A DNA stretch of 64,000 nucleotides from Strobilurus pachycystidiatus. Lineage: Eukaryota > Basidiomycota > Agaricomycetes > Agaricales > Physalacriaceae. The translations under genes and the position numbers were made by a program. Of the stretch, positions 8,573-55,635 are shown in pieces (positions within the stretch are counted from its first letter, which is position 1; every line of letters starts with the position of its first letter). Location: contig JAHLMK010000022.1 of assembly GCA_019915135.1 (NCBI GenBank), forward strand, positions 719,915 through 783,914. The letters are read 5' to 3'. Under the pieces are notes generated by a model that was given only the letters and a program-made list of their open reading frames with translations, was not told the origin of the DNA and ran no database searches.

Positions 8573-11500
8573 TCAGGTGGCGGCTTTTCCGCATTTGCAC
8601 ATCCGCAAGAAAAACTGGTGATCCTTCTCTAATGCCTCCAAAGCAGCTACTGACGCACCTCTGGACGCGACTGAGATGTTCTTATCCTCGCCAACACCCA
8701 TTGCTTTGCCATGAATCAACACTATGCTCATTCAGAAGAACGCCACGCAATCAGAGAGAAACACGGACCTGTACAACGCGACAGTCTTGGGCTATCCTTC
8801 TTGATCACTTCCAGAGCGCGACAACCCATGCTATGGACACGCTCATGTAGCACTTTCGTAGGATGATGTGCGAGCGACTGGAGAGAGATATGCTTGTCGT
8901 AGAATGGTTTTAACAGGTGGGCGTATATGAGATCTGGACCATTCACGGTGTTGAAGTTTTCGGTCACGTATGCTGCCGCTATGACCGATTCGACTATGTC
9001 GGCGAGAGGCTTGGGTCGTCAGTAAGGTGCTCACCAGGATGGGGAAGCCATACCTTAGGTGGATCCACGTCGAACCAATATTGGCCAGGCAGACGTCCCT
9101 CCAACGTAGCAGCAGCGTATTCCTCATTTTGTTTTTGCCGTATCAATTTCTCGTACTTGTTGAAAAAGATGGAGAGCTCCGCTGATTGGAAACTTATGTG
9201 TCGATGTAGACCGGAGTGCACGCATAAAGCAGCCAGCGTGTTGTTGGAGACCATAGCGGCCTGGATTTCATCGAAGTCAAACACTTGAATGGGCGGCGAA
9301 AAACCAAATACCTTCAATACTGACAATGCACCAGGTCCAAGCTCCTCGTCGTCCCTGAAGATATTCCGAACAACCACTGTCGCACGGTGAGGGCCCAAAT
9401 AGAGGGTTACTGTAAATTGGACGCACAGAAATCCAGAAGGGCATCTCCGAGGAACTCAAGGCGCTCATACGACGTTCCTTTATGGGATACATGAGTCTGA
9501 CCCTGTGTTCAGATCCTGATAGGAATAGATGAGCAAAAGGCATACCAGAGCTTGTGCTAGAAGATGAGGCTTCTTGAATTTATATCCTACAATAGTTTCG
9601 ATTGACTGTAGCGCGCCTGGCTTCAGCGAGGCGGTCACTTGGGAAGAGGGCATCACAGCTCGACGAGCGAAATCTGACCACCGTGAAACGTCGTCCATGG
9701 GTACACCCAAGGCTTTCGTAATCTGGAGGCCGAGATCTCTGCCGCCTGTCAGATATGCGGCGCCCATTATAGCCTCAGTCACATCGGCGACATTCTGAAA
9801 CCACTGAGCTTGCATATCTCCTTGGTGGCGGGATGAATCACCTTGTCTCCGAGCCATTGAGTAGGGGCGGCCACCCAGATGTTCTGGGCCTTTTTCTTGC
9901 CCTTTTTTCTTCGTTTCTTCCCACCGGCTTTCCCATCTCCGGGTTGTGTGGCGCTATTCTCTCCTCCCACTGGTTCAAGCGCTGTGTCTTGCGCAGCGCA
10001 GCTGTGTTGGTCGTCTTTCTCGTTGTCTTGATCCTCGGGATGGAAGTTGGGAGGACACCAGATCTTCAACAACGGGGCCTTCGAATGAATGTATTGGGGT
10101 AGCCCAATATGAACAGCCCGCGACAGCAAGGAGGCATTGCTGATGAGATCTATACGCAGTCCATGAAGCGCTCCCTCATGTCCCGGATGGGTTACGAACA
10201 CATATGTCGATGATATGTATTTTAGAAAGGCATCCCCTGGCAACAAGGAATTTTCAGACTTGGTTGAATGTGACCATGGAATGGACGGACCTAGCAGCTC
10301 CAAACGTTCGTAATCGTATTCGTAGCCGACGGAGAGTGCGGTAGTTGCCGTCAATAACATCTCTTCTGATATCGAATGTGCAAATATTTTTGCATTCAAT
10401 TCCTTGACGAGAAGGAATTCATCAATCCGACGTATGATGGAAGGGAGCAGGAAACTCGTCCGAAAGACACTGAAAGACATCTAGATCAGACAGGGACTGA
10501 GACGCCATACAACGGCACTTACCTGGCAGGTATAGTACACTTTGAGGTAACTTCAGGAATCAGGTCTGTTTTGGACAGTCAGAGATCTGGGAAAAAGTTC
10601 GAGTTTTAATGACTTGCACTTTGAATTCTTGGTCTCCGGTGGCGGAACAAAGCCCGGGTTCAGGTGGTCGAAGCCATTCGTATCTTGATTAACCTGTATG
10701 ATGCACTGGTTCTCATCCTTTAGGCCGTCAAAGCTCGTACTATGTGCCCGAAGGTAGTCGAGAAGGCTCTCGTTAACAGCTTCCCCTGACTACGGAAACT
10801 GAGTGATTGATGCAAAATGCAGCGATATCGGGGGTACTTACCACCTGGCGTCCTTGGGGACTGCTTAATGGCGTCAGATCGGGCCTCAGATGAACATTGT
10901 CGTAACGGCGCGTGAATTCGCCGATCCTATCCTGTACCACGGCATCTGCGATATCTTCTGCTACAACATCTGCTGCCCCGTACTTCAAAGGAACAGCCCA
11001 GTGAGCCGCTGCGAGGATGATAGAATCCCAGTGTATGACATTCGTTATGTCCGGAAGACGTATGCGATTGGTGGGATCTGTTACTGGGGCCGTCCACCTC
11101 GGAACAAGAGGAGCGAGGAGGTAAGCCATCTGTTCGATAGGACAAGTGTCGCGCTTATTCGTGGTCAGACGATACAGGCGAATGGTGTATTTGGCGAGAA
11201 GATTTAACTGATGGTCGTCCAACTGCAGAGGAGCAGCACGACATAAACGTATGTCATCGGGTATACCTCCGAAATAGAGTCGTATAGATGGGAAATCCAC
11301 TAGAGCATCGCGCGTGAAGAGGATCAATGGAGCATAAGTCCTACCATCTGCTTTCACAGACTCTGCGCATATCGCCGTGGGATATAGCGTGCTCGTCGTG
11401 CGGTACTGGAAATTCCGCCAGAAAGTAGGTCTCTTCATCTCGTATTCACGTGTCCCAATATTCTTCTCTGAAAGTGGGGGCATGACAGGGGATTTACCGT

Positions 11501-13061
11501 CCAATGCCGTAGCAAACACCACTAGCCGGGGATCCAGAAGACCCGCTTCTATCACTTGTGAGCACAGTTCAAAACACGCCTCACGTCTTGCCAAACTCTC
11601 GGACATCGAGGCCACGCCCTCGAAACTGCCTGCAAGAAGACCTGGTAGAATGATCCTGCATACATAATCAACTCCCGAGGCAGTCTTTGCAGTCCTGTAG
11701 TCGATGCGCAGATTGTCCGTAGTCAAACTCTTAGACTCCTCTCGGAGTTGAACTCCAATCCGATATGCCAGCAGCGTGGCGTCGGAAAGATATATGCGAC
11801 CGCCTGTGATAGGGTCTGTCAATTGACGACCTTCTGATTCGATGCATGAGGGTGCAAAGAATGGCTTGAGTTGAGCCGAAGTGGATGGAGGAAGCAGGGT
11901 AGGTGTGACCTGTAGTCCCCACACCTTCATGCTCTCACTCGTCCTGGAAAGAAGTTCTAATGTGTGGCGATGAACGGGGTTTTCTCTCTCGGCCATAAGG
12001 ACCACATGGCTTTCTTCTCCTTGTGTTCGAGAGTATGTATAGGCGTGCGAGAGATATCCGTTGGGTAACGAGAACCTGTGGTAGAAGAAGTCAGATCACG
12101 GAAGAAGCCCTGTCAACAGACATCCTCACCGAACAACCAGTGAGGCTCTGGGAATGTCCAAGTCCTCCGTTACAGACGAAGCAATCAGCAAGTTGTATGT
12201 GTCCGAAGCAAAGGCCGCGAATATTTCGGCCTAGCAATAGTTCAAATAATTTCTCCACGAACAAAGGCAGATCAACCCTACTTGGACCTCCGACATTTCG
12301 TCGCCTGTCAGAACATGACAACGAAATGCCTCCAAGCCCCCCGTAGCCCTAATCAAGTCCAGCATAGCATATGCGACGTACTTGTCCGACACTGTGAAGC
12401 CGATTAGAGCATGTCGACATCGTGACATTATGTCTAACCGAATACAATCGCTCGGAAACCTCTTCTTAAGGGCTCACATGCCTTGAGCACCTGCACCAGT
12501 CGCAGAAATTTAGGAGAGACATTGAAACCGACGGTGAAAATATCCAGATTTGGCATCGAGAAGGTCCAAGCCTTGATAGCATTGCGTCCTTTGATTCTCA
12601 GCCAGACGGCTGAATCTCTCACAGTGTCCGTCTCGGCGTAGAGGGGTAGATCGTTCTCGATGTCCGCCAGAGCACGCTTCCATGATAGATCAGAAGCACA
12701 CAGACCCAGTTCTTCGTCAATCCGCCGAGATAAGACAGCGAAAGAGTCGAAGAAGTGATGCTGTTTGGTGACGTTCCGGATGGTAATTGTGAGTGACTGC
12801 GAGTGATCCCTGAGAGACGTGTCGTAGATAATTATCGATTCTTTCGAATATCCGCCAACTTCGAGAAGTGAGAAGTTGAATGGCACGCGTAGAGACAAAA
12901 TTACCGAGTTCACCTCCAGCGTGTGTAGTCTTGCGCCGTTTACTCGGGATTTGAGGCTCTTGCGGTGAATCATGGGGTATATCAGAAGCCAGGCGACTAT
13001 CTGAGGGTGCAGATGACGTCGGGTCTGCCAGAGCAGACGCGCCACCTTCTGCAGTACCCAT
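8573..13061 (-). CDS. dcl: Dicer-like RNase III without the DExH ATPase half
   Basis: Large multi-exon gene, start ATG 13061 (in-frame alternative 13127), stop 8573-8575. In order: a short basic N-terminus (KRRKTTHAGG); the linker and C-terminal helicase lobe (GFNVSPKFLRLVQVL, KYVAYAMLDLIRAT); a dimerisation/PAZ region (about 12005-10800); RNase IIIa, where a spliced intron gives ERLELLGDAFLKY with ADVTEAIMGAAY; RNase IIIb, ERLEFLGDALLDF with ADIVESVIAAAYV; and a C-terminal dsRNA-binding-like exon (VASRGASVAALEALE). Both RNase III acid clusters are intact, so it should dice double-stranded RNA for silencing. The Walker A and DECH motifs of the first helicase lobe are not found here or upstream. 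It is convergent with COX8. Confidence 0.85.
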
Positions 13062-17162: not shown

Positions 17163-17889
17163 CTAAAAATCCAAATCGGCTGCCGAAACCTGTGTTTACG
17201 TCAGCACGCCACATACAATGAACCAAACTGGCCATATCTACCTCCTCAAGGTCATCGAAATCGATGTTCAACCACACGCGAGGCGGTCGACGTTCCTCTG
17301 GGGTAAATTCGTGGTCCGCAATGAGGAAGGGAACTGAATAATTGGCATCTTCATATTTGATATCGTTGAGATTGTAGAGATGGAGGGTGCCACAGCACCA
17401 GTGGTTGGCGTCGTAGATACGCAGCGTGTAGTGGTGCAGGTCGTGCGGGTCGACCGTGTGGAAGCCCACCTCCCTGTGAGAGACATTAGTCGACACCTAC
17501 CGCCAACGCGCCGACGTACATCATTACGATGAAGGCCGCGTTGACATAGCCCCCAATCCTACTGCGGCAGGCCCGAAAGATGGCGTGGATGCGCGAGTGC
17601 CCGCTAGCGAACGGACGATGCAGCTGGGCGCGATTAAGCGCGTGCTCGTAGGAGTCGGGCATGCCGATACGGATGAAAAACCTGACGCGTCGGTGGGCGG
17701 CAGGCGCGGTTGGCGGGGCGTGCAAGGCGAAAGGAGGGACGGCAATCGTCGCAGGTACGATGGCGGATGCAGTGGCGAGTTGGACGCCGACCGGTACAAT
17801 GGCCAAGGCAGCGTTGGCGGCTGGGATGATCGGCACGCCGATGTTGGGCGCTGCGGCGGCGACAGGGGCGGTTGATGCGGCGGTAACGG
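17163..17889 (-). pseudogene. Host gene interrupted by KDZ element, 3' part
   Basis: Minus-strand coding sequence of an unrecognised basidiomycete protein. From the element border it reads AASTAPVAAAAPNIGVPII, an Ala/Pro/Val-rich stretch, then FFIRIGMPDSYEHALNRAQ. A GTACGT..CACAG intron (about 46 bases, near 17477-17522) leads to EVGFHTVDPHDLHHYTLR and RIYDANHWCCGTLHLYNL. Another intron at about 17191-17242 precedes the last codons and stop TAG 17163-17165. No start codon remains on this side: the first 13 codons lie 15 kb away at 32951-32989. Function unknown. Confidence 0.75.
17882..17889 (+). repeat. Target-site duplication, left copy
   Basis: ggtaacgg, identical and in the same orientation as 32951-32958. 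Both copies sit 49 bases outside the first conserved inverted-repeat block (cacctaa), and the host reading frame confirms the border. Confidence 0.9.
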
Positions 17890-18594
17890 CACCTTTAGCA
17901 GGCAGAGTGATGCATGAGGTGTGGCATTTGACACCTAATTTGGATGCATTAAACGTGCCAAATGGCAGGGGGTAAAATGGCAGAGGATTTAGTAGTAGGG
18001 GCGGGGAGGGCGGACGGGCTGCTCACTGTATGGCGGGAGCTGCTCACTATATGGCGCGGCGGGTAGATAGAGCAGGGAGGGATGGCGGGAGAGGCTGCCT
18101 AATCGGGAAAGCATGGGTAGGGGAGGCGTTAGTTCTGGGTTGGGGTTAGGGGGGAGGGCTGGGAAATTATCTGGGTGGGGGGGATGAGCAGCTGGGTAGG
18201 TAGTGCAGATGAGGATAGAAACTGGGATGGGGTGGGGGATGGGGCTGGTATAGTGTGGCGCACCATAAATGGGGCGGAGATGCTGGGGATGAGAACTGGG
18301 ATTGGGGTGGGGTAAAAGGACGCCATATATGGGGCTGCCAGAGCGTTCTGTGGCGCTTGCAAATGGGTAAAAGCAGGGAATATGGGACGGGATTATCTGG
18401 GGATATTGATGGGGTGATCGGGGATGATGGGGATGTGATCGGGGGGTCCTCTTGAGGAGAATTGGGTCTCGATCACTGCGTATTAGGGTGGGATGACCAG
18501 GGGGGGGTCCCTCGCTCTAGTGTGGCGCAATTTTTTAAAAGCTTACATTAGCCATGCACGACAAATATATACACAACAAAAAAAATTACAATTC
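17890..18594 (+). repeat. Left terminal inverted repeat of KDZ element
   Basis: Inverted match to 32256-32950. The inner half (about 18240-18594) is nearly identical to the right copy; the outer half is alignable but much diverged, with indels. It is G-rich on the plus strand. It contains two copies of the 12-mer tagtgtggcgca (18251-18262, 18518-18529). The inner end overlaps the stop codon of the 18586-21307 gene. Confidence 0.88.
18518..18529 (+). promoter_or_regulatory. Subterminal 12-mer, candidate transposase site
   Basis: tagtgtggcgca, repeated at 18251-18262 and in inverted orientation at 32324-32335 and 32591-32602. Two copies per terminal repeat in mirror positions fit a transposase-binding site; the role is inferred only from position. 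Confidence 0.35.
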
Positions 18595-21307
18595 ACCTAA
18601 AACGAAGAGAACATCCTCTACAGCATTATTCCAATCATCCATCTGATGCTCATATGCCTGCTTAGCACGAACTCCTCCAGTCTTCTTCTCCATTACAGCA
18701 ATGGCCTGGCGCCAGAAAAAAAGAGCTGCCAAGACTGTCACAAACCCATTAGGACCTCTCACCCTCAGTGTACTCCAGTCTCCCCTCTCCACTCTCTCTA
18801 CATTCTGCAGAAATTGGCCTGCCGCATGACCACCTCTCATCAAGACAGTGATACCCTCCCACTCTCCTCTCGCTCTTCCCCTCGGCTGCAAAAATGTCCA
18901 CCACCCCAGAAAGTCCTTCGCCAGCATGACTGTGTTCTGTGTCTTGGGGGTCCAAGGCCACCTTCTAGCTCTCCCCACCCACTCGCTAACCACCGGCGGT
19001 CGACCAGTCTTCTGCCTCATATTCCCCGTATCTAGCTTCCCCTCCTTGAAGCTCTCGGTCTTCGCCTCAAACGCCAACCACCTCTTGACCAGACTCTCCC
19101 ACTGCTTGCCAAAATCTCCACTCTTGAAGGCAGTGAGGCATAAGTCAAGCTTAGAATCTAGCCCATCCCCCAAAACTAGTTCGCCAAGGGTTGTATCAAC
19201 GTCTCCAGTGTCAGTTTGTTCTTGGTCTCCCATAGCGGACGTTTCCCCACCAGGCCGCGACCGCTTGTGAGAACGATTGTCAACAGCCCCATCCCCTGGC
19301 CGTTTCCGAGTTGAGTTAGGTAACACGCCAGAGGGTGCAACATGTAAGGCGGGTACTATGGGTGAAGCTGAGCGGGAGACGGCGGGGGAGACGGCGGGGG
19401 AGACGGCGGGGGAGACGGCGGGGGAGACGGCGGGGGAGACGGCGGGGGAGACGGCGGGAGAGACGGCGGGTGAAGCTGAGCGGGAGACGGCGGGAGAGAC
19501 GGCGGGTGAAGCTGAGCGGGAGACGGCGGGAGAGACAGCGGGAGAGACGGCGGGTGAAGCTGAGCGGGAGACGGCGGGTGAAACGGCGGGGGAGACGGCG
19601 GGGGAGACGGCCATACCAGGCGGCGCTATCGGGGAGGCGGGGCGGGATGGCGCGGGCGAGCCAATAGGTGAGACGGCTGGGGAGATAGCAGGTGAGACAG
19701 GTGTGGCTGGCGAAGCAGCAGCAGCGCCAGGTGCGGCTGGTGAAGCAGCGCCGGGCGTTGAGCGTGAAGCAGCGCTGGGTGCGGCGGCGGAAACCGCGCC
19801 GGGTGTGGTGGAGGAAACCGCGTTCGGTGCGGCAGGAGGTGTCGAAATCACGCCCGTGGATGCTTGAGGCTGGGTCGTTTGCTCGGCATTCGACTGTGAG
19901 GTTGAGGTTCCAATGACATTGTGCATACGTTCATCACTGGTGTCGGAGAATCGAGAGACGGTGACATTGCCGACCTCAGTGGTGAGATCTTCAGCCGCCA
20001 ACTCTCTTTGGTCTACCTTTTGCAAGGCCATCTTCCTACAGTCACCGACCGCTATATATAGATAAGCATTGCTTCATTGGTCAATTCACGAATCAACACT
20101 TACAGTAGCATTGCTTCAGAAACTTCCCCCACGCCGTCTTGATATTATTCCGTGCAAAGGAAGGGTCGGCCTGGATGAAATTAAGACCAACAGACCCTTT
20201 CGTGGAACCAGCGCAGACACTGGTTAAATGTGAGCGTCTGCCCCTAACAAGGAAGGAGAAACTCACGTCAACATAGTCAAGCGTCCTCCATCAAGAGGCT
20301 CAGGCCCTCCTCCAACACAGAAGAAGGACCACCCCGTCTCCAAACGGAGCTGGTCAAGGAGCGCCTGCAGCCGTTCGGCCACAGTGTCTAAAGCCCTACA
20401 AGGTGTCATCAGTGGAATGTCTCAAAGCAGCCAACTGGTCGCTTACTCTTGAACCTCCTCTGGGTCAGTGCAAGGCCCCGCATCCTTGCGCGACGCCAAC
20501 TCCTCCAGCCTCGCCTTGTACAGCACCTGTGCCTCTTTCAGCTTGCTCTTCGACATCTCCTCCCACATCTCCTTCTCCTCTTGCGGTAGTGCATCGAAAC
20601 GCGCCTTCTTTGCGTTCGACATCCTTCCCGCCCTCTCCTTCTTCACCCGTTCCTTCACCTCTGCCGTATACCCCTCAGCCGGCCCGAACGTGTCTTCCAT
20701 CTCCTTCCGAAACTCCTTCAGCACGTCTTCCTTCGTTGCCGTGAACCAGAGCTCCAACGCAGAAGTCTTGCGGGGCTTTTTAACGCTATCCTTGCGGACC
20801 TTGGCCTCTTCTTTTCTTCTCTTCTCGCGGGTCTTCGTTTTGTTGGCCGTTTTTTCAATGTACTCAATCCGTCGCTGTAATTTCTGCCAGAAGAATGCTT
20901 AGTTTGGCGGGGAAGACGGGGGAACCAATACGCACGGGAATGAGATCTTTCTCCCTTTTACAGCGCTCCATGTACGCCGCTAAATCCGCATCAAACCTTT
21001 TCGCGTCTTCCTCTCTTCTTGCGCGGACCTCTGCCTCACCCTCTCCTTCCACAGGTTCCGAGTTGTAGTCCTCCTGCTTGGGGCAGGAGACCTCTTCGTC
21101 AATGGCGTTGTCGTCCACAGCATCAAGAAATGCGTCCGTAGGCTCCCAGGATAAAGGGTGGTCGGGGGGGAAACGCTTGAAGAATCCTCGAATAATTTTT
21201 CTAGAGGCGTCCGCGGCTTTGTTGTCTTTGACGGCTTGCTTGTAAAAGGGTGCCTGTGAGAGTAGATATGCACCTCTCTTGCCACGAAACGTTCCCGGAT
21301 TTGGCAT
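18586..21307 (-). CDS. KDZ-element cargo protein with HMG-box-like part and SPAVS repeat
   Basis: ATG 21307 (MPNPGTFRGKRGAYLLSQ), stop 18586-18588, about 830-850 residues after four introns. The last intron (just above 20031) joins KFLKQCY to SVGDCRKMALQ in frame, so the 481-codon 3' ORF is not a separate gene. Domains: an N-terminal globular part (IIRGFFKRFPPDHPL); basic heptads; ARFDALPQEEKEMWEEMSK, resembling the last helix of an HMG box; the block FFCVGGGPEPLDGG; a long SPAVS/RSASP repeat; then a C-terminal Trp-rich domain (FKSGDFGKQWESLVKRW, FLGWWTFLQPR, AALFFWRQAIAV). Similar proteins are, as I recall, common in mushroom genomes near KDZ transposases. Function unknown; a DNA-binding or structural accessory is possible. 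Confidence 0.75.
19362..19612 (+). repeat. Minisatellite coding SPAVS/SRSASP repeat
   Basis: About 20 tandem 12-base units of the type gggagacggcgg, with interspersed gtgaagctgagc variants arranged as a higher-order pattern. On the minus strand it reads Ser-Pro-Ala-Val repeats with Arg-Ser-Ala interruptions. It lies inside the 18586-21307 gene. Confidence 0.85.
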
Positions 21308-21542
21308 CTATAATTCCACATTAGCTGGGTACGAATGGAGCCAGCAGAAAAACTTGCTCTTGCTGTGATGGTGGCAGTGATGGAAGGAACGCGGGTCCAG
21401 ACCAGCCATCAACCTTGCCTCCCTATCAGTGATAGGGACAGTGATAGGGAGCCTTTCAATCTCGCATTCGTACAAGTAGCTTAAAAATCTAGCCAACCGG
21501 CGTTTACGTCTACCCAAGGTGCAATGAGTTTCTCGAAGTAAG

Positions 21543-22274
21543 TTACAACCCGTTGACCCAACGAACAGCCTCCTCCTCTGTAAGCTGACACACCGTGGTA
21601 CCCATATCGGAGGGAGCCACCTCGGCACCATAAAACTCCTCCAACTCACGTCTGATATGGGAGTTAGCATCAAGTTCAAGGGCTGGACGGAGAAACAATC
21701 GTACCCCTTGTGGAAGGCATAACGCATGCCTTCATGCTCAACAAGAAACACCGTGCGTCGAACGGACTTGACGGCGGCTGAGGCGAATGCCAGGCTACGG
21801 CTGGAGGCGGCGGTGCGTGTAGAAGAGGACGCTCCCTTATGAGGAGAGGCTTGTGGGGTATGACGAGGTGCTTTGCGCGGGGTAGATGGGCCCGGGGACG
21901 AACATGATGAAGCGAGAGCAGGTGCACACACGACGGGGCGAGAGGGAACAGATGGAGCCACGATTGGAGAAGAAGGGGGAAGCTCATCCACATCAGACTC
22001 GCTGTCCGAACCGTTGCAAGTTTGAGCAAAAACGTCGTCCGCCCATCCAGTGAACAAAACGTCCTCGGAAGTCTTTGCCACCGTCAATCCGTGCTTGTGA
22101 TTAGCCGCGCAGAAATCATGCCACCACCGGCACGCCGCGGTCCAATCTGGCTTCCGGGGCGTGAACTGTTTGTCGCACCGACTGGCTTCCGGAATAATCC
22201 AACTGCGACACTCTTGTCAGCTCGAGTTGAAAATAGAGAGGAACATACGCACTAGTCGGTGTAGATTCCAACAT
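21543..22274 (-). CDS. KDZ-element cargo protein, unknown, small
   Basis: Exon 1 starts at ATG 22274 (MLESTPTSA). A 47-base GTATGT..GTCGCAG intron leads to WIIPEASRCDKQFTPRKPD and RWWHDFCAANHKHG. A Ser/Pro-rich linker follows, then FLVEHEGMRYAFHKG. A second intron (GTACGA..ATATCAG) leads to RELEEFYGAEVAPSDMG and EEEAVRWVNGL, stop 21543-21545. The C-terminal pattern (F-V-G-Y-F ... EEAVRWVNG) faintly recalls the small RNase H1 N-terminal hybrid-binding module, but I cannot confirm it. The region 21308-21542 up to the next gene has no supported coding exon. Confidence 0.6.
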
Positions 22275-22542
22275 CCACCCCGCTAGTGACTATATAAAAC
22301 ACCTTGAGATCTTCGGGGCGCGTCTGTCGGTGGCCCACAGCGGGATGATACGGGGGAGGACACCGAAAACGCATGGCGTGATGGAAGGACCAAACCAAGA
22401 GTATCAAAGCCTGATCCGGGGCAAAAGGCGTTGGTGTAATCCATATTACTCAACTCACTAAAGGCCATGCATTCCTTCGCTACGAGCTATGCTACACAAG
22501 AAAGAACTATACTACAAGATATCTACAAAATGTACGCTAATT

Positions 22543-23477
22543 CTACCCATTGAATCCATACAGAACATACATCTCTTCAACGCCTTCAGTTTGGTCATCT
22601 TCATCGTATGGAGGTACGAAGATGTCCGCGTCCTCTGGAAGTCCCTCCCAGATTGCTAGCCTCCGAGCATCAACCTTCATTGAGAGGGGGGGAGTGTCAA
22701 CCATCACAACGGGCAGGTCGTGCCACCGGAAGAAGAGGGTGTCGACCGCTACCAAGGCGTCGGCAACCTTGGTGATGTATTCGCGGGCGTTCGCCTCCCA
22801 TTTCTGGATGAGATCATCATCGTCGCAATTGTAGTGATAGGAGCTGAAAACGCGCTCGTTAACAGTGGGTAAGTTAGTGATCCCAATTGCGCACCTTAGA
22901 TTGAGAAGACGATCCAGCGTGCTGACCAGGTTGGACTTGGCGGCAACCGTCCATTCACAATCCTGTTGAAGAACCTCCTCCCTGTCTTCCGCCGGAACAT
23001 CCACATGCGCCCAATCGCTCGATCCTGAGCAGACAATTTCCGGCGGGGTGGCTGAGAACCAACGTCGGGACAGCAGACGGGCATATTGCAGGCGGAAGCT
23101 GAGCATCTGTGTTCGGCGATGATCAGCAGATGAAAAAAGTAGAACCGAACACGCACCTTCAGATAGCGCTCTGGCAATAGACCCCACGTATCGCGGATGT
23201 AGGACTCTAAGACCACGAGAAAATCGCGCTTCTCGCCGCGCTGAATCGCCCGTGTGTACGACGGGCGTAGATGGCGGAGGATTTCCATGTGAAACGGCTT
23301 CACCCGCGTCGTGATATAAGCGGCGTAACGGGACTCCATGTTGTGCGCCAGGGCAGCTGGGGCGTGGCGAAGGTCGGACGGCGGTATTAGGCCAGTGGGG
23401 ACCAGAACCTCGGCAAAGACATAGCGACCGTCGGTGACCTCGACGGTATGAACGTAATTGTTGTCCTGCGAGGTCAT
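22543..23477 (-). CDS. KDZ-element cargo paralog A, unknown family
   Basis: ATG 23477, stop 22543-22545, two introns (23107-23156 and near 22857-22895). Diagnostic stretches are VPTGLIPPSDLRHAPAAL, ILRHLRPSYTRAIQRGE, FRLQYARLLSRRWFSATPPE, QQDCEWTVAAKSN and an acidic tail. Each has a counterpart in the divergent gene at 23559-24471, so the two are ancient duplicates. No known fold was recognised; there is no signal peptide or membrane helix. Start codons of the pair are only 81 bases apart. Confidence 0.75.
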
Positions 23478-23558
23478 GGTGGAAGCAGCGAGACTTGCGC
23501 GTCGGAGTTTGAAAGCTTACTAAAGCGGTAGCCCACGCTTCTCCTTTGGCCTTGCACC
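23478..23558. promoter_or_regulatory. 81-base divergent promoter of paralog pair
   Basis: The whole spacer between the two start codons. It must hold both 5' UTRs and promoters, so the two genes are probably co-expressed. The middle carries cttactaaagcggtagccc; no TATA box was recognised. Confidence 0.55.
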
Positions 23559-24471
23559 ATGTCCAACCGCCGCGGGACGATCAACGTCGACGCTGACACC
23601 GGCGACATCATGGCGCAAATTCGCATTCCCCTCGGGGTCATTCCGCCGTCCGATCTGTGGCACCTCGACGCTGCCCTCAACCACAACTTACACTCACGAT
23701 TTGTGATCTACGCCTCAACGACCGTCCGCGCGCCCCAACTGGAGACACTCCGGTACCTTCGCCCGCATTACCAGCGCGCGGTAGCGACCGGAGAGGGCGA
23801 GAAGATACGTTTCTTGGTTGCTTTGGACGGCTATATGAAGGAGGTGTGGGGCTCTTTGACGGGGAGGGAGATCAAGGTGTGTGATACTCATTTCTGTTTG
23901 ATGCCTACTGACATATTCTGTAGACGCTCGGTTTCCGTTTACAGTACAACCGTCTTCTCTCGAGGCGCCGTCTGGCCATCACCCCCCCAGAGACCGTGCT
24001 CGAGTGCACGGCTTGGACCAACGATCTCGTTCCCGAGGACGACGTAACGGACGAGGAGCTCTTGCTCAGTGACTGCGAGTGGACCAACTGCGCCAAGACG
24101 AATACTGTTGAAATCCTGGATTACTGGCTGAAGCGGCGGTGCGTGTATTCCAAACTCATCTACCCACCTCCTCACACCGTGACAGCGGCGGATCGAAGGA
24201 CGACAAACACGTTCAGAAGTGGGCACGAGATGCGCGCACATATGTCGCCAACGTCCGCGCTGCCAACATTGGACTTTTTTGGTGCTTCCGCAACTGGTCG
24301 CAAAACGTGTTTGCCTTGGAGAACACCCCCGCTACAGCCGCTGAGAGGGCGCAAGTGGCCTTGTGGCTTGAGCAGCCGGAGGACGAGGGCGTCATTCTGG
24401 GGCCCTACGACGAGGAGGCGGAGCACCCGGATATTGATCAAGATGAGGTACTGTTCGACGGCCTGTCATAA
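23559..24471 (+). CDS. KDZ-element cargo paralog B, unknown family
   Basis: ATG 23559, stop 24469-24471, two introns (about 23877-23923 and 24140-24186). It parallels paralog A: IPLGVIPPSDLWHLDAAL, LRYLRPHYQRAVATGEG, FRLQYNRLLSRRRLAITPPE, LSDCEWTNCAKTN, then an acidic C-terminus (LEQPEDEGVILGPYDEEAE). Identity with the partner is moderate by eye, and highest in the LQY-RLLSRR and DCEWT-AK blocks. Intron positions also correspond, which supports duplication rather than convergence. Function unknown. Confidence 0.75.
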
Positions 24472-24549
24472 TACCCCTTCCTAGCTACCCATATTGTTCT
24501 TTTGATTTATATACTGCGATTTTCTTGGAGAACCTTGCATTATGCTATG

Positions 24550-25264
24550 CTACTGTTGAAAAGAAAACAACTGGGATTCATATAAATGTAAGAAGGTATT
24601 CTGACGCAGACTGGTGACAAGTTCCTCCGCCATTGAAGAGACAGACTCCATCTCTTGAACCTGCGGCTCTACGAGTTTCACGACGCCCGGCTGCCCCAAC
24701 TTCTCCATCCCCTCAAACACACACCGCGCTTCCAACATCCAGTCCAACATACTTCGAAGTTCGGCTTTCACCTCGCCAGCGCGCTCTCTGAACGCCCTAC
24801 CCTTTGTCCGCGATAGTTCCTCGGAGAGCGTCAGGAAATACTGGGAGGTGGGGTCGGCTTCCAGCCAGAGAACGATTTTCTCGTGGTAGCCGGCAATTTG
24901 GGTGAGACACTTCTGCACAGCAGAGGCGTTGGGAAGTTGGGCGAGGGTGGTGGAAGGGGGTGGCGCGGGAACGTTGTCAAGCAAGGATGTCGGCGCGCTC
25001 CCGTTGGATGGATCGGCAGGGGGGCTGTAGATGACTCGACGAGCGGTCAACCTTGAAAAATGAGTTAGTCGCCCCCGCCGTGTGAAGGTTCACGCACCGT
25101 TGTGGATCCGGACAGTCTTCCGCTAGATACTTCTCTCTTCGCCGCTCTCGAATCTCAGCGCCTTTCTTGCTGTAATATTTGAGATTATATTGCTGACGCG
25201 CCTCTTTGCGAGCCTGAGCGTCGTCGTAGATGCGCGGACGGCCGCGCTTCTTGCGGGGAGGCAT
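24550..25264 (-). CDS. KDZ-element AT-hook-like DNA-binding protein
   Basis: ATG 25264, one intron near 25052-25097, stop about 24550; roughly 220 residues. The N-terminus PRKKRGRPRIYDD is a textbook AT-hook core (GRPR) followed by a basic, helical stretch (KYYSKKGAEIRERRREKY). The C-terminal half is helical and acidic and could self-associate. AT hooks bind the minor groove of AT-rich DNA. Placed between the paralog pair and the dioxygenase, it may steer element proteins to DNA; that is inference. Confidence 0.7.
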
Positions 25265-26083
25265 CAGGGTGATGGTGGTAGTGTGAAGAGATCGAGTTGA
25301 TGAACTCGATCACATACCGCAATACAAGTCCCGCTACTACATCAGACTTTTAATCCTGTGAGCTGGACAGACCGAGATCCCTGGAGTTGATGACTTTCTA
25401 TGAGCTTGCTGTAATCAGACCCACAAGTAACAAGAATGGTGGAGAAAGGAGCAGCCAAAGGCTGCCGCGTTGTTGTTCAATTCCCACCAATATGACGTGT
25501 TAAGATATTTAATCCCAGGAGCTCGACACATGTTAGAACTCGAGATGAAGAACTATTTGAATTGAATGACCATACGACAGATGGAGTATGCGGTCAAATA
25601 CTCCATATGTGGTACATCCGGGGCGTATAACCTGCGAGAAGTCTTGATGCAGTGATCTTGCATTGATTGATTCAGTCCCTCTGACTTACGCAAATACACA
25701 TCACTCTATGTCTCGTAACATGTACAGAGCTCATCAAAAGAGTCCTCACATCCAATGGACTGATTTACATGTGCGGCAGCTACTTTCGTCCTCTGTTCTT
25801 AGACTAGGACTTATTGTCTTAACACGGTAAGAATGTGGCCATGCACTTGACGCCAGACATGTCGGAGGATCTCATCGCGCACCCAAAAAAATGTTTCGAG
25901 TAGCTCTTTCTATGTCACGCTGCCAGTCGGTAGTCCTCTCGAACCGCTGGTCTGTGTCTGAAAGTAGGTGTTATTTATCTTGACGAACGACGGGAGCGTT
26001 CACGCCTTGTTCACGCTTCCATCACGGCACGAGCAGACGGTCACGTCACTGTCCGTTGGTTGCCTCTTGCCGTCGTCGACTCC
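25265..26083. other. Noncoding spacer inside KDZ element
   Basis: About 820 bases, AT-richer than the flanking genes, between the AT-hook gene (leftward) and the TET/JBP gene (rightward). It probably contains both promoters. An imperfect repeat of tttaatc..tgagctggac (25350) and tttaatcccaggagctcgac (25509) is visible. No ORF supported. Confidence 0.5.
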
Positions 26084-28181
26084 ATGACCAGTCCAGGCAA
26101 GTTTTTTTTTTCATGCTGGCGTCTTTTTTCCACACTTTCGAACGGTGCTGCACAGTGTACGCTAACACAGTGGAGGGCCGCAGCTGTGCAGCATCGCGTA
26201 GTACTGGCTAAGCTTCGAGTTGGGCCGTCTGCGCTTTTAGTTTACCTTCTTTACCCCCATCTCCTGTCCCTTTTTGGCTCAAACTTGAGCTCAACGGCTT
26301 TAGCAGCATTCTTCCTCAGGCGTCAAACGCGCTCCCAGCGAGTTTTCTCGCCCTTTGCTGGCCCTCCTCTGCCGCCTATCGTCACGGCCGTTACCATCGC
26401 TCAGTTGACCGAGCGACGGGTACAGGAACGCGACGCGCTCGATGCAGACGACCTCTATACGCGCGTCGCGACCCCACCTCCTCCATCACCTCTTACCTCG
26501 GCTGCATCATCTCCTTTCCAAACCTCGTCCGCGTCGCCTGTCGCCGACTTGTCCCTTGGCTCCAATCTCGGATGTTCCGCGCCTTCTGCTGCTGACACCG
26601 GTTCAGTGGCGCTCTCGCCGCCGGCGTCGCCTTCATTGCCGTGTTCTACGTCCCCGGTGGCCTCTGCCAACCCATCGTCGCCAGTCAGCTCCTCGGCCAT
26701 CCCATGCCCTGCAGTGTCCGCACGCTCCTCCCATGATCTTGAATTGGAGCTTGTCGAGTACTCGTCGACGGACGAGGACTCCCACGCCATGTCTTCTGCG
26801 CCTAGCCGGGGTAAGAAGCGCAAGTTCCGCAAGAGGAGCTTGAAGTACAAGAAACGGGCAGCCCAGCCGGCTCAGTCATTGCATGCCCAGCCCTCTTCCA
26901 TTCCAACCAACTCCAACATCTCGCCCAGGCCCGCAGATCTGGGCGCTCGTTCTCGTAAGCGCCAGAGGCGCGCGGACGTTCGAGCCGAGGAGCTCGATCA
27001 TCGGCTCGAACGCTTCCCACCGCACTTACTCTCTCGCCGTCGTCCGCCAACAGAAAGATCGCGGCGCCATGGTTTAGAGGCGCCGGTGGTTGAGACTGAA
27101 TATTTGCCCGAGCAGAGGGAATGGCAGGGGCCTCGAACGGATTGGGACACCGAGGAGTGGACGTTTGACCGTCTTGGTGAGCTACAGACTATGGGACACA
27201 CAGTGGTTGAGTGGGAGGGCGGGTGCGTTTTTCATCTTGGTTGTCGGGCTGCCATTGACTTCCTTTTGCTTCAGGCGGCCTCGAGTCATCCTTGACGCGG
27301 AGCGTCGCGTTATCGTAGTCCTTGTCGGACACCCTAACGATCCCGATTGGGAGTCTCGGCTACGACGAATCAGGGAGCTCATTCGGCGTTATAAACTGCG
27401 TTGTCGGTTTGACGCCGAACATTCGCATCACCGGAGAGGCGAGTATGAGACGCTGGGTTGGGGGATATCATTTGGTGGAGGCCGCCTCTACCCAGGCTGG
27501 ATCGACAATGCCCGCTGTAACGATGCCGCCATGTCCGAAATCCTTGAAGATAAGGATATTCGATTTCTTTTGAATTTTGCAGATGGTAGGTTCATTGTTG
27601 CAGCTTGGTGTATCGTATATTTGCTCACTCCTGATTTAGCCCAATTTGCCAAGTACTTCCCATCAATTCACGACGACTTTGCGGAAACACTGGAGCGCAT
27701 CGTTGACGATAACCCGCAGCTCCGGACTCCCATACCTGGATGTGCTTGGGCAGCCGCACACATAAATTTTCCACCCGGCGCCTGGACAAACGCCCATACC
27801 GACCATCTCAACCATGTGGGTGGTCTGTGCGGTGTCTGGGCCCTTGATGACTTCGACCCCGACAAAGGCGGCCACCTGATTCTATGGGATCTGAAACTCA
27901 TCATCCGCTTTCCACCCGGCAACTTCATCCTCCTCCCGTCTGCCCTTGTCACCCATGGCAATATATCCATCCACGGCGGTGATCAACGTTCAGCGTTGGT
28001 AGTGTTTTCGGCTGCTGGACTTTTCAGATGGGTTCATAATGGCATGATGTCAGACAAGGAGTTTGAGGAGTTGGCGACGAAGGAAGACTGGGCAGCCTGG
28101 TCGGAGTTTCGCAAGGAGCAACCTCGTCGAAACGCGGAGCGTTTCCCAGTGTGGGATGAGTTGGTCAAGACGTTCGAGTAA
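26084..28181 (+). CDS. TET/JBP family 2-oxoglutarate/Fe(II) dioxygenase
   Basis: Suggested start ATG 26084, with a possible 219-base first intron (26101-26319), then a Ser/Pro-rich and basic N-terminal region. Two clear introns follow (about 27223-27276, 27587-27641); stop 28179-28181. The C-terminal half is the catalytic double-stranded beta helix: WTNAHTDHLNHVGG has the iron His-x-Asp, LPSALVTHGNISIHGG the second iron His, and QRSALVVFSAAGLFRWVHNG the Arg that holds 2-oxoglutarate. Conserved LGWGISFGGGRLYPGW precedes it. The family oxidises 5-methylcytosine (or thymine in JBP). It sits 203 bases upstream of the transposase start in the same direction, as in other basidiomycete KDZ elements. 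Confidence 0.88.
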
Positions 28182-28383
28182 TTTATGTAGCTTAGTTATT
28201 CAATCCATCTCTGCTGTTTATTTGTTCTTCATCGTGTTATGAGTATCTAGGGAATTAAAATTTACCATTAATCGCTGCACTCTTATGGCAGGAGAGGGAG
28301 GTCTGTCTGATTACGTTAGCAGGACAGGTTTACGCTCTTCCCTTTTCCTTTGGCTTTGCTGTCCGTCCCTCCTTGCTTTGAGC

Positions 28384-31300
28384 ATGTCTGGAAATCGTCA
28401 TGGCCGGCACCTGGAAAAGATCAATGGCCGTTACGTACCATTCAAGAAAAATCCTGGAGGTGGAACGTGGGGACGGGGAAGCGGGTCTCGCGGAGGAGCG
28501 ACTGATGGCGTCCGGGGCTCGAATCGACCTCAAGGTCGGGAACGGGTTGTAGAGGATAATTACGACGGCGACTACGAGCTCGTCAACTCTCGGCACGCTG
28601 TACAGGATGCGCGCGGAAATGTACGCGTCATGCCTGCTTCCCCCGGCAAGGGTACCCAAACCTGGCTGACAGGTAGCACCTGGGAGGCACCAGAAGACCA
28701 CGACATTGGCTTGGACGATCATGGCGACGGATGGGTGGATGAGGTGGAAGCAGACTTTGAAGATACGCGCGTGGTGAGGCAGGCTGAGATGAGATCTAGA
28801 CCCAAGGGAAAAAGAGTCCGTAGCCAGAAGGCGGTGGGTGTTTCTTTTCTGCCTCCGGGTGATTCTATACTGATGAGCGTCTCATAGACGCGCCCAAATA
28901 TCTCATGGCTCAGGCTTCACCGTTCGGCCTACCTGGACGAACTTCTTCGGTATAAGGGCAGAGGCGACTGGTCCAAGGTCACTGTCTGTCCTGACTGCAT
29001 CGCCAGAAAGAATCCCAGTCCTTCCCCCCCGGAGTACCGCTGCCGCCAGTGCTTTGTGAACGATCTCTGTTGCCGTTCGTGCTTCCTCAAGCGCCATCGC
29101 CAGCATCCTCTTCACCAAGTTAGGGTGTGTATTATTGCTGTGACGTCCTCCTTTTATACTAAGTTCTTGTAGAAATGGAATGGCCGTTACTTCAAACGCA
29201 CGTCATTGAAGAGCATAGGCCTCCGGGTGCAGCTCAACCACAACTCTTCGCCTTGTCCCAACCCCGAACCCTGCCACAAAGAGTTCAAGATCCTTCACAC
29301 CAATGGAATACATGGCATCGCCCTTGATTTCTGCAACTGCTCTCGCCAGATACCCAAAGCTACCCAGCTTCTTCGTCGCGAATTTTACCCAGCCAGCCAT
29401 GACCAGCCTCGGACGGTCGCTACATTCCGGCTCCTGGAGTTTTACCATCTCCACTCCTTATCCGCCAAGGGTGGCGCTCACGATTTCTATAAGACGCTGG
29501 AGAAGCTCACGTCAAATACGGGGATGGGAGTGCCCAAGTCGCGCTACCGTGCGTTTATGCGGATGACCTTGCAGTGGCGGCATCTGAAAATGCTGATGCG
29601 AGGAGGACGGGGGCATGAGATGGGGGGGGTGGAGGCTACCAAGCCACGAGACCTGGCGATTATGTGTCCAACTTGTCCCTACCCCGATATCAACCTTCCC
29701 CCCAACTGGGATAAGGTTGAAGAGGCTCTTCGGTACGCGTTCTCATCTTGATTCTGACTCATGCTTATGGCACACCCTCTAGATTTCTCTACGTGGTCAT
29801 GATCTGCATGGACGCAAACTTCCGTCTGAAGGAGCAAGAGGTTTCTTCGTGGTCGAGGGATCCCGGATTTGGCCTGGATTGGGGGTATTGGTGCAAGCAG
29901 GATGAGTTCCGCCGATATGTGGCCAATAAAGCCAACGCCGCTGATGAGGTAAGAGTTCTGGTCTTTAACAACTTGCTTCGTCTTGACATCTCTCCAGATT
30001 AGCACTTGTGTGGGGTTTAACGCGCTGGAGAAAGCAAAGACGAAGTTTTCCAAGGGGTTGCGGTTCACGGGCGTGGGACAATGTGTATGCGCCCGTTCAG
30101 AGATGATTCTTACAGCGTGGAATCTGACCAAGGGAGAGGCGTAAGTAACACGGTTTATTTATATGCGCCGCGGTTGACTTTGCTTCCTAGTTATGCCCCT
30201 ATGGACTTTGGCTTTGCGACGGCCGCACTAATCTACGTCAAGCTACTTTGGATTATTCTCATCTATGACATCGCATGCCAATACTTCATCAACCTCCGTA
30301 CTCGCCAGACCGGTTGGCCAGAGCATCTACGAATACCATCCACAACCACTCTCACCCCCGGTATCGGCAAGTTTCACGAGCCGGGGCACCAGCAAATCAA
30401 TCACCAGGCGTTCTCGCTACTGTTAGTGTTGGGTGCCGGGTATACGGATGGGGAGGTCAACGAGCGAGTCTGGGGACCTCACAACGTCTTAGGCAATTCC
30501 ACCAAGACCATGGGTCCTGGCTCTCGTGCTTTGGTGTTGGACGACAATTGGGGGCACTGGAATCACCTCAAGTATATCTTCATGGGGTCGACTTTGGCAC
30601 GCCGTTACAAAGCCGCAGTCATAGAGCGTAATCGCCAAGTCGAGGGTCACAGAAGCTTCACCACGCAGTTGCCGGAGGATCTGACGAAGGAATGGGAGGA
30701 GTTATGTGTAGCGTGGGAGAAGGACGATTTTCCGAAGACGGCGCTAAATCCCTTCGAGGTTCCAGAGGAGTTAATGGGCGAGAAGGAGTTGGAAAAAGAG
30801 TTGGAGCTAGAAGAGCAGGAACGGCGTCGTCGTGGAGGTCCCATTCTCCATGAAACAAGCGCCCACACATTCATCAAGTTGGGCCTTGAGCTCGAGGAAG
30901 AGCAGTAAGTCAAGTCGCTCTTGCTTTTCTCCTGCCCTACTAAATAAGTTTCAGATACGAAATCAAGGCAAAAGCGGCGAAGGAAGAGTTACGGCTTCCG
31001 GGGCGGGGAAATCGGGGTCCTACTCGAAAGGAGCTTGATCTTGAAGACCGCCGGCGAATATTTTTTCGGAAGCTGAAGGGATGGTTGGAAGTTCGGAGTG
31101 TATACCTCCCAGGCCTCGTGCAATATCTGAAGGACTCGGAGCAGCCCGGGGCAGAGCTGGGGGATGATTGCGAGTTTCCAGAAAGAGAGCTCTTATGGCT
31201 TCCCTCTTCTATTGCTCAGAGTCGTCGAGAAGGAGTCTGCATGGAAGGGTTGCCGAATATCGAGGATCGTTACAGGGAGGCACAGCTTGGTGATGGATTA

Positions 31301-32260
31301 AACGGGGTGCGCCACATCCTACGAATCAAATCCCGCATGATGTACTTCCAGCACAAGAACATGCGGGGACAACGGGACGGGAATCGCTCTAGGGCGGTCA
31401 TCGATCGGGTTCATGAACGGGCTCTTTCCTCTGCTGTCAAGTATCGGAGGGCTCGATGTGCGAGGATTCTGTTAGTTGGGGCAGGGGTGTGGGAGGAGAA
31501 GTGGAGGGACTTGACAAATGCCGATATCAGGTCCTATGTGGATGTAGAGAAGAAGAAGCCGGGGCCCGGTAGGAAAGGAACCAACGAGGAGGGGGAGGAT
31601 GAGGTGATGGGGGAGATGGATGCGGTGGCGGAAGGGGAGACTGTAGGGGGGTCGGAAGCTGTTCCTGAAGAAGGAAGCTTTGAGGCTGGAGCCACCAACG
31701 ACGGGGAGGTTGACCTATTGGCCGATTATCGAACTCGGCATGAAGGTACCAACAGAACCCGTAACACCCTGTCTTGGATTTGGCAGACGGTATCCATCAG
31801 GCTGGATGATGGGGCGGATGCTGATAACCTGGTTCTAAGGTCCGAGTGGTGTAAAAGTCGAGCACGGTCAAAGAGAAGTACAGAGGAGGTAATGCTTTTG
31901 AAAGAGGAGATGAGGCGGGACCTGGATTTCTTGAAGTGGAAGAGTAAGGTATGGCGTGATCGGGTCCCTATGAGAAAGACTGAGGATCCAGCTTTGGAGG
32001 AAGGCTTGGTTGCATACGCGGAGGAGCAGAGCGACTTGCAGGAGGAGTGGAGAACTCATTTCAACGAGTTGTGGCAGAAGCCTCTCCAGGATATGGATTC
32101 GGGGGAAAATGAGGAGGAGGATGAGAATATCATAGCTGACGAAGGTGATGAAGATGACGATGAGGTGGAGAGGCAAGAGGATCAGGGTGATGATGTGTCA
32201 GGAGATTACGGAAATGTAGAGGAAGATGAACATAGTCGTCCCAGTATTCCTAAAATTTAA
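28384..32260 (+). CDS. KDZ transposase with CxC2 zinc cluster
   Basis: ATG 28384 (MSGNRHGRHLEKINGRY; an upstream in-frame ATG is at 28285). Six introns of about 45-55 bases (near 28833, 29128, 29733, 29949, 30142, 30906) all keep frame, giving about 1,180 residues. After a basic N-terminus comes the CxC2 cluster (CPDCIARK, CRQCFVNDLCCRSC, QHPLH) and FCNCSRQIP. The catalytic core shows VMICMDANFRLKEQ (first Asp), LIYDIACQYF (second Asp) and NERVWGPHN (Glu), with TGVGQCVCAR and the family hallmark TMGPGSRALVLDDNWGHWN. The C-terminus is acidic. It should cut and join the element ends. The stop codon falls at the inner edge of the right inverted repeat. Confidence 0.92.
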
Positions 32261-32950
32261 ATTGTAATTTTTTTTGTTGTGTATATATTTGTCGTGCATG
32301 GCTAATGTAAGCTTTTAAAAAATTGCGCCACACTAGAGCGAGGGACCCCCCCCTGGTCATCCCACCCTAATACGCAGTGATCGAGACCCAATTCTCCTCA
32401 AGAGGACCCCCCGATCACATCCCCATCATCCCCGATCACCCCATCAATATCCCCAGATAATCCCGTCCCATATTCCCTGCTTTTACCCATTTGCAAGCGC
32501 CACAGAACGCTCTGGCAGCCCCATATATGGCGTCCTTTTACCCCACCCCAATCCCAATTGTCACCCCCAGCATCCCCGCCCCATTTATGGTGCGCCACAC
32601 TATACCAGCCCCATCCCCCACCCCCATCCCAGCCCCAGTATTCATCCTGCGCCACCTACCCAGCTGCTCAACCCACCCAGCCAACCCCCCCACCCCCCAA
32701 GGCCAACCCCCGTCCAGATCCACCCCCATCCCCAACCCTTTCCCAATTGGGAAGTGGTCCCGCTGGTTTCCCGCTTTTCCATCTACCCGCCCCGCCATAC
32801 AGCGAGCAGCTCATCCGCCCCAGTCATCCCCGCCATCCACCCGCTCCCCAGCGAGTATATCCTACCTAACCTTGCCATTTGGCACATTTGATGCATCACA
32901 ATTAGGTGCCATTTGACACACTTTGATACATGGATATGACTTACTAGGCT
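32256..32950 (-). repeat. Right terminal inverted repeat of KDZ element
   Basis: Inverted match to 17890-18594, C-rich on the plus strand. The near-identical inner part runs from about 32256 to 32600. The 12-mer tgcgccacacta occurs at 32324-32335 and 32591-32602. The transposase stop codon (32258-32260) lies at its inner edge, so the transposase 3' UTR is inside the repeat. Confidence 0.88.
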
Positions 32951-32958
32951 GGTAACGG
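32951..32958 (+). repeat. Target-site duplication, right copy
   Basis: ggtaacgg, the second copy of the 8-bp duplication. It forms the end of the 13-codon 5' fragment of the interrupted host gene on the minus strand. Confidence 0.9.
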
Positions 32959-55276: not shown

Positions 55277-55635
55277 GTTGGCAAAATAGCAGTGAAATTT
55301 GTTGATAGGCTACAAGTACGAAATACGAAGTACTGGCAACCGTCCCGACTCGACATGGCATCCAAGCCAGTTGCGCATACTACTTCCCAGTTGAACATGT
55401 TATCCGAACGCAATCACCTAGGCTAATATAGGGCCATTGTTGTATCCTCTTGTTTGTACATACAATGCCCAAAACAAATATTCACGTCGAACAATGGCAC
55501 ACCTCGTTATTTGGGTAGTCTGGTATATGGTGGCTACGGACTGCCTCTTCGGAGTCTTACCGACCCACCTTCAACTCACAACTTACCAACCCACCACTCA
55601 CACTCTCAACTCACACCGATTTATCGTTGTCCGCA

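Follow-up and report, generated by a model that had tools for sequence, protein, structure and literature searches.

A KDZ DNA transposon of 15,061 bp is bounded at positions 17890-32950 of a 64,000-nucleotide stretch of DNA from the basidiomycete Strobilurus pachycystidiatus (G000:C22:719915-783914), referred to here as the window. The element contains a gene for a KDZ transposase, a gene for a dioxygenase that resembles the TET/JBP enzymes, and five further genes, which we call A, B1, C, D and E. Its relatives were sought in the 51.8-Mb genome assembly of 61 contigs, and the numbers C2, C4 and so on denote contigs of that assembly. The gene models are predicted from the sequence only; all seven splice with GT-AG introns and contain no internal stop, in agreement with a preliminary description of this locus, which had reported five cargo genes besides the dioxygenase and no damage to any gene. 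Introns of about 50 bp, and the expansion of KDZ and dioxygenase genes in the assembly, would suit an agaricomycete. The features, in window coordinates, are the following.

17882..17889, no strand: left copy of the target-site repeat GGTAACGG (17883-17889 if the duplication is 7 bp)
17890..18236, plus strand: left outer end (CACCT..), not symmetrical with the right one, with a tip common to C4, C23 and a twice-present C7 insertion
18229..18593, plus strand: left inner inverted arm, 365 bp, 99% complementary to 32260-32624 (353/357)
18586..21307, minus strand: gene A, 839 aa, 5 exons, matched by no Pfam family above cut-off
21543..22374, minus strand: gene B1, 242 aa, 3 exons, with the motif FYxVxxGxxxGIYT
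22543..23477, minus strand: gene C, 294 aa, 2 exons, paralogue of D
23559..24471, plus strand: gene D, 272 aa, 3 exons, paralogue of C and divergent to it
24550..25264, minus strand: gene E, 222 aa, 2 exons, with the N-terminal AT-hook KKRGRPRIY
26084..28181, plus strand: TET/JBP-like 2-oxoglutarate- and Fe(II)-dependent (2OG-Fe(II)) dioxygenase, 590 aa, 4 exons, with HxD, His and Arg intact, Asn at D+3 and Cys at D+9
28384..32260, plus strand: KDZ transposase with CxC2, 1191 aa, 7 exons, predicted model, with D426, D545 and E607
32260..32624, minus strand: right inner inverted arm, pair of 18229-18593
32625..32950, minus strand: right outer end (AGCCT.. on the minus strand)
32951..32958, no strand: right copy of the target-site repeat GGTAACGG (32952-32958 if 7 bp, the element then ending ..TG at 32951)

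The left end of the element begins CACCTTTAGCAGG at 17890, the right end reads ..TAGGCT up to 32950, and GGTAACGG flanks the element on either side. Both termini recur in the genome. The left pattern, CACCTxTAGCAGGCAG.., has five exact matches (window, C4, C23 and two on C7), the right pattern, AGCCTxxTAAGTCA.., has five matches with at most one mismatch (window, C2, C4, C7 and C6), and the reversed-pattern controls gave no genome match for either terminus. Over the outer 200-340 bp the left side is unlike the right within an element, while the tips are common to different elements. The ends, the flanking repeat and the presence of the same ends in other copies bear out the earlier proposal of a complete, bounded KDZ transposon of about 15 kb.

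The 8-bp target duplication that had also been proposed stands in part. A target-site duplication of about 7-8 bp, as in KDZ transposons, is present, and in the five two-ended copies the flanking repeat agrees at 8/8 bases in the window, in C4 (GGGCGCGC) and in C15 (GTCTTTGA), and at 7/8 in C12 and C6. The mismatch in C12 is the base that would be dropped if the duplication were 7 bp and the termini CA..TG, but the eighth base matches in the other four two-ended copies, which weighs against the 7-bp reading. The duplication is 7 or 8 bp; if it is 7 bp, the eighth base of the repeat would be the element's own terminal G. That the insertion had broken a gene was considered and dropped: once the empty site is rejoined, the junction is spanned, on both strands, by open frames of 64-202 codons, and, since these were not searched further, no target gene is claimed. 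The CpG observed/expected ratio of the element is 0.89, that of the flanks 1.00 and 0.97 and that of the left arm 0.61, a signal too weak to interpret, and CpG loss resembling repeat-induced point mutation was dropped.

Family termini also delimit shorter elements. One at C6:1348836-1349212 (L005) is a miniature element of 377 bp with both termini and a 7/8 flanking repeat; another, of 5.1 kb, at C12:47219-52317 (L041), matches none of the seven proteins at E 1e-3 and retains about 100 bp resembling the region where the dioxygenase gene starts. The two C7 insertions (L043, C7:2114639, and L044, C7:2172718) are one insertion within a duplicated stretch, the copies being 58 kb apart; their flanks are 98.9% alike over 1,232 bp, and the flank reads, by eye, like the catalytic exon of another KDZ gene.

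The predicted transposase matches the KDZ family (Pfam PF18758) at 1.8e-49 and CxC2 (PF18803) at 6.5e-39. Its D426, D545 and E607, recognised beforehand as the catalytic Asp/Asp/Glu, align with D, D and E in C4, C7, C2, C15 and C26, with additional off-register pieces at D1 from C2 and C26. No close copy was found in the genome: the best other KDZ match listed is 78% identical at the protein level (150 of 183 candidates were scored, and the list is a lower bound), so that recent amplification is not indicated. This would suit an element that is complete but immobile, whether as a lone insertion of long standing with genes still undecayed or as a newcomer, brought in by mating or horizontal transfer, that has yet to spread, and the relatives on C7 (in the KDZ gene), C2 and C20 are interrupted by other insertions, resembling by eye a long terminal repeat (LTR) element, a hAT element and a long interspersed nuclear element (LINE). 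Matching flanking repeats, seven models without internal stops and a second copy, on C4, that is bounded as well argue for a mobile element instead, and we consider immobility unlikely.

The C4 copy (C4:2919751-2934770) matches all seven genes, in the same order as the window except that the C/D pair is inverted, an arrangement also found in C7 and C2. Amino-acid identity between window and C4 is 73% for KDZ, 64% for the dioxygenase, 57% for C, 51% for both A and D, 40% for B1 and 32% for E. The proportion of nonsynonymous differences (pN) is 0.17-0.50 against a synonymous proportion (pS) of 0.73-0.85, with synonymous sites saturated; the codons come from tblastn pieces and include some intron edges. 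Since C4 matches all seven genes at saturated synonymous sites, the cargo appears to be an old gene set kept under purifying selection. C2 likewise matches all seven, with A inverted, and C7 matches six, with no clear A at E 1e-3. In a second group, defined by match positions only, KDZ, dioxygenase, E and B1 adjoin one another without C/D (C12:85-92 kb, C20:128-136 kb and C7:2059-2067 kb).

The same association is seen when the genes are located one by one. With neighbouring matches merged, the genome holds five matches to exon 1 of A, nine to B1, seven to E and six to C/D. E has a dioxygenase match and a listed KDZ match within 15 kb at 7/7 loci, B1 has both within 18 kb at 7/9 or more, and both kinds of match are also near C/D (at least 4/6 loci) and A exon 1 (at least 3/5). 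The last exon of the dioxygenase has 71 genome matches (68 loci after merging), of which at least 18/68 lie within 10 kb of a listed KDZ match where about 3 would be expected; among the 13 best matches the number is at least 11. The distance between the dioxygenase and KDZ core exons is 2.4-2.7 kb at nine loci and 3.1 kb at C2.

In one bounded relative most of the cargo goes unmatched. C15 (C15:478723-492707) contains KDZ, the dioxygenase, a distant A and an open reading frame (ORF) with a B1-like motif by eye. At E 1e-3 none of B1, C, D and E finds a match in it, so that these genes are not required by every KDZ-TET element. From this copy one might argue that the element picked up its five additional genes from the host by accident. 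That all seven genes are matched in C4 at saturated divergence, and that E, B1, C/D and A occur at few loci, mostly beside dioxygenase and KDZ matches, makes such an accident very improbable; the retention of the five further genes in a distant copy suggests a standing toolkit rather than chance passengers.

The five products give partial clues to what such a toolkit might do. Gene A encodes a Ser-Pro-rich tract in 12-bp repeats; the tandem repeat occupies 19360-19611 and encodes a Ser-Pro-Ala-Val tract. The B1 motif resembles the RNase H1 N-terminal (Cauli_VI) domain, which was below threshold in both of two B1 relatives tested (E 0.19 and 0.34). C and D, correctly taken for a paralogue pair in the preliminary description, match no Pfam family at E 1. 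The AT-hook of E, noted there as well, is kept in C4, C7 and C2. For B1, C/D and E we met no description in a literature search on few terms, and absence in print is not claimed. That the cargo has no described role, as stated earlier, is in part out of date, since KDZ-TET transposons whose ends are defined have already been published (PMC12730594).

The identity of the dioxygenase requires more care. The earlier claim of a TET/JBP enzyme holds as regards its intact HxD, His and Arg and its relatives, 8/25 of which, among those aligned, match Tet_JBP at E<=1 (best 1.2e-5), but the window protein itself matches neither the Pfam Tet_JBP model at E 1 nor any TET chain in the PDB. The two best relatives, L060 (25.1 bits) and L055 (24.5), are under the curated cut-off of 34.9, and the Tet_JBP model run against the genome gave 13 matches, none over the cut-off and none in the window. 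A PDB hit at 0.0063 was a capsid fusion chain over a short helical stretch and was discounted; a profile of 25 members found no PDB chain up to E 10, although CcTet of Coprinopsis cinerea is in that database. An NCBIfam scan of A1 gave two families with one member each (best 0.048), and a single-sequence fold prediction reached a predicted local distance difference test (pLDDT) score of 37, too low for use. Viral relatives were also sought: 18 pattern matches in viral contigs yielded none that was confirmed, and a 61-residue N-terminal query found no phage match.

A link to known TET enzymes nevertheless comes from within the genome. L070, a protein encoded elsewhere in it, has a match to CcTet at 3.1e-6 to 3.3e-6, and the window dioxygenase exon aligns with it over the GG..PG..H..R catalytic core (E 8e-4). 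L068-L070 form a separate CcTet-related family; L070 has Asp at D+3, and its 10 genome matches include none within 10 kb of a listed KDZ match. In the 25 aligned relatives the 2OG-Fe(II) core is nearly constant (first H 24/25 with one gap, D 25/25, second H 25/25, R 24/25), and five positions are invariant: the HxD Asp, D+3 (Asn), D+7 (Gly), D+9 (Cys) and the second His. The enzyme could still be another 2OG-Fe(II) oxygenase, acting on protein, RNA or a different base and linked to TET/JBP at superfamily depth only. The empty PDB search of the profile favours this, as do the relatives that weakly match 2OG-FeII_Oxy_3 (3/25, best 0.0037) or match phrog_24024, a PHROGs family whose function is not known (15/25, best 6.6e-6). 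The Tet_JBP matches, the core alignment with the CcTet-related protein, the close pairing with a transposase and an Asn at the offset of CcTet Gly331 and human TET2 Asn1387 speak for a TET/JBP enzyme, and we would give the other assignment about one chance in four. The TET/JBP identity rests on the relatives and not on a direct model match.

The active-site residues are informative about the type of enzyme. In CcTet, His326 and Asp328 are followed by Gly331 (D+3) and Asp337 (D+9), and human TET2 has Asn1387 at the position of Gly331; the Asn1387 side chain forms a hydrogen bond to 5-methylcytosine (5mC) and clashes with N6-methyladenine (6mA) (PMC11040006). The AG-type TET of Kyakuja has Gly/Ser at CcTet position 331 and Asp at 337, and the PE type is marked by HxE (PMC12730594). 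Counted by offset from HxD, with no CcTet or TET2 alignment behind the positions, the window family has Asn and Cys in 25/25, unlike the AG signature, and it has Asp in 25/25 where the PE type has Glu. By these residues, compared with the published descriptions, the family looks set apart from both types.

The inverted repeats of the preliminary description are present as two inner arms of 365 bp at 99%, to which diverged outer stretches are added; the stop codons of gene A and KDZ sit at the inner edges of the arms. Within one element the arms are nearly identical (353/357 in the window and 483/485 in C4, both 99%), whereas window and C4 arms compared with each other give 187/339, near a shuffled control (130/272). 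Whole-arm comparisons of other pairs range from 391/675 (window and C7) up to 523/684 (C4 and C7), the C12 arms match each other at 464/601, and C15 showed no such inner arms. In C15 and C23 the CACC-type end is the one on the KDZ side; in the window, C4, C7 and C2 it is the AGCC-type end. Exchange from arm to arm would explain both the homogenisation of the arms and the flipping of the interior. Dating of the insertion from arm divergence was dropped because the arms look homogenised within elements.

Together, these observations are best accommodated by a KDZ transposon of the cut-and-paste kind, complete, probably autonomous and constant in its set of genes, in which an anti-silencing role is proposed for the cargo; we think this somewhat better than an even bet. 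The KDZ transposase would act on the asymmetric termini CACCT.. and ..AGGCT, and the TET-like enzyme would oxidise 5mC on the element and so allow it to escape silencing. DNA-binding cargo, namely the AT-hook protein E and possibly A, might bring the enzyme to the element, and B1, C and D would be accessory factors retained for the element's own benefit. The inner arms may be re-copied from each other within each element, most simply by gene conversion or by fold-back repair after excision. Methylation of the genome is plausible, as seven C5-methyltransferase matches exceed the Pfam cut-off.

Several results weigh against this reading, besides the missing close copy, the cargo genes that go unmatched in C15 and the negative model and PDB searches with the dioxygenase. 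Among the genes, B1 and E are weakly constrained (pN 0.42 and 0.50), A and B1 each have one stop in the aligned C4 pieces (these may be introns read through, the C4 genes not having been modelled), and the HMG-like part of A, seen by eye only, has no Pfam HMG match in 3/3 versions. As to location, A occurs at C7:2117608 and C7:2175689 with no listed dioxygenase or KDZ match nearby, and 50/68 dioxygenase loci have no KDZ match within 10 kb among the matches listed. Finally, the arms of C4 and C7 are 76% alike, so unalike arms are not universal between elements.

A bolder version of the transposon reading can be put forward tentatively, and we hold it to be possible rather than probable. In it, the element would be one of a line of KDZ transposons with seven genes each, and its dioxygenase (HxDxxNxxxGxC) would add an undescribed fourth type of TET/JBP enzyme borne by transposons to the published PU, AG and PE types. 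The enzyme would be partnered by element-encoded DNA-binding proteins (E and A) and new factors (B1, C and D), and the element would have asymmetric ends and arms that are repeatedly homogenised and able to flip the interior. As the Asn is kept as in TET2, favouring 5mC, the enzyme would be predicted to act on 5mC and not on 6mA, unlike CcTet.

Two other features of the window lie outside the element. A Dicer-like gene is found at 10773-12005 on the minus strand, about 6 kb to the left, with a Dicer dimerisation domain at 1.4e-8. At 55627-57951 on the plus strand are two adjacent ORFs (411 and 339 aa), possibly another mobile element; the first reads by eye like an Ulp1-type protease, and Pfam gave nothing at 0.01.

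Iyer et al. in 2014 reportedly described TET/JBP genes beside KDZ and additional KDZ cargo, including a divergent HMG domain. Transposon-borne TETs are read as anti-silencing tools, escape from methylation being the model proposed for them (PMC12730594), and what is at issue is whether they act alone and how the element is located. A bounded element together with a copy at saturated divergence yields a short list of candidate partners for the TET enzyme (A, B1, C, D and E), and the Asn/Cys active site yields a biochemical prediction, activity on 5mC but none on 6mA, in contrast to the CcTet-like enzymes linked to Kyakuja so far.

CcTet (PDB 7vpn and 7w5p) shares with the window enzyme the 2OG-Fe(II) core, HxD and the second His; it oxidises 5mC and also acts on 6mA (PMC11040006). 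It differs in having Gly331 and Asp337 where the window family has Asn and Cys, and the 25-member profile detected no sequence match to it. KDZ1-KDZ3 of Cryptococcus neoformans resemble the window element in their length (about 9-11 kb), long terminal inverted repeats (TIRs; 139-241 bp) and KDZ domain, and KDZ1 in its 8-bp duplications. They have CxC1 where the window element has CxC2, carry no TET gene mentioned in the available part of their description, and have been shown experimentally to be mobile (PMC12810828). Zisupton, too, has a duplication of 8 bp (PMC12730594).

A close likeness is to the Kyakuja TET+ elements of Agaricomycetes (Kyakuja-1_LB and -2_LB; Kojima 2025, PMC12730594), which also combine KDZ with a TET/JBP-type gene between defined ends and whose CA..TG termini would be present in the window element under the 7-bp reading. 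Kyakuja-1_LB and -2_LB have 7-bp duplications and no TIRs, whereas the window element has 365-bp arms at 99%; their AG-type TET has Gly/Ser and Asp where the window family has Asn and Cys; and the available part of the Kyakuja text mentions nothing equivalent to A, B1, C, D or E. As judged from its predicted genes, the window element is a KDZ-TET transposon of a kind already known, to which it adds a constant set of partners and a difference in the active-site residues of its dioxygenase.

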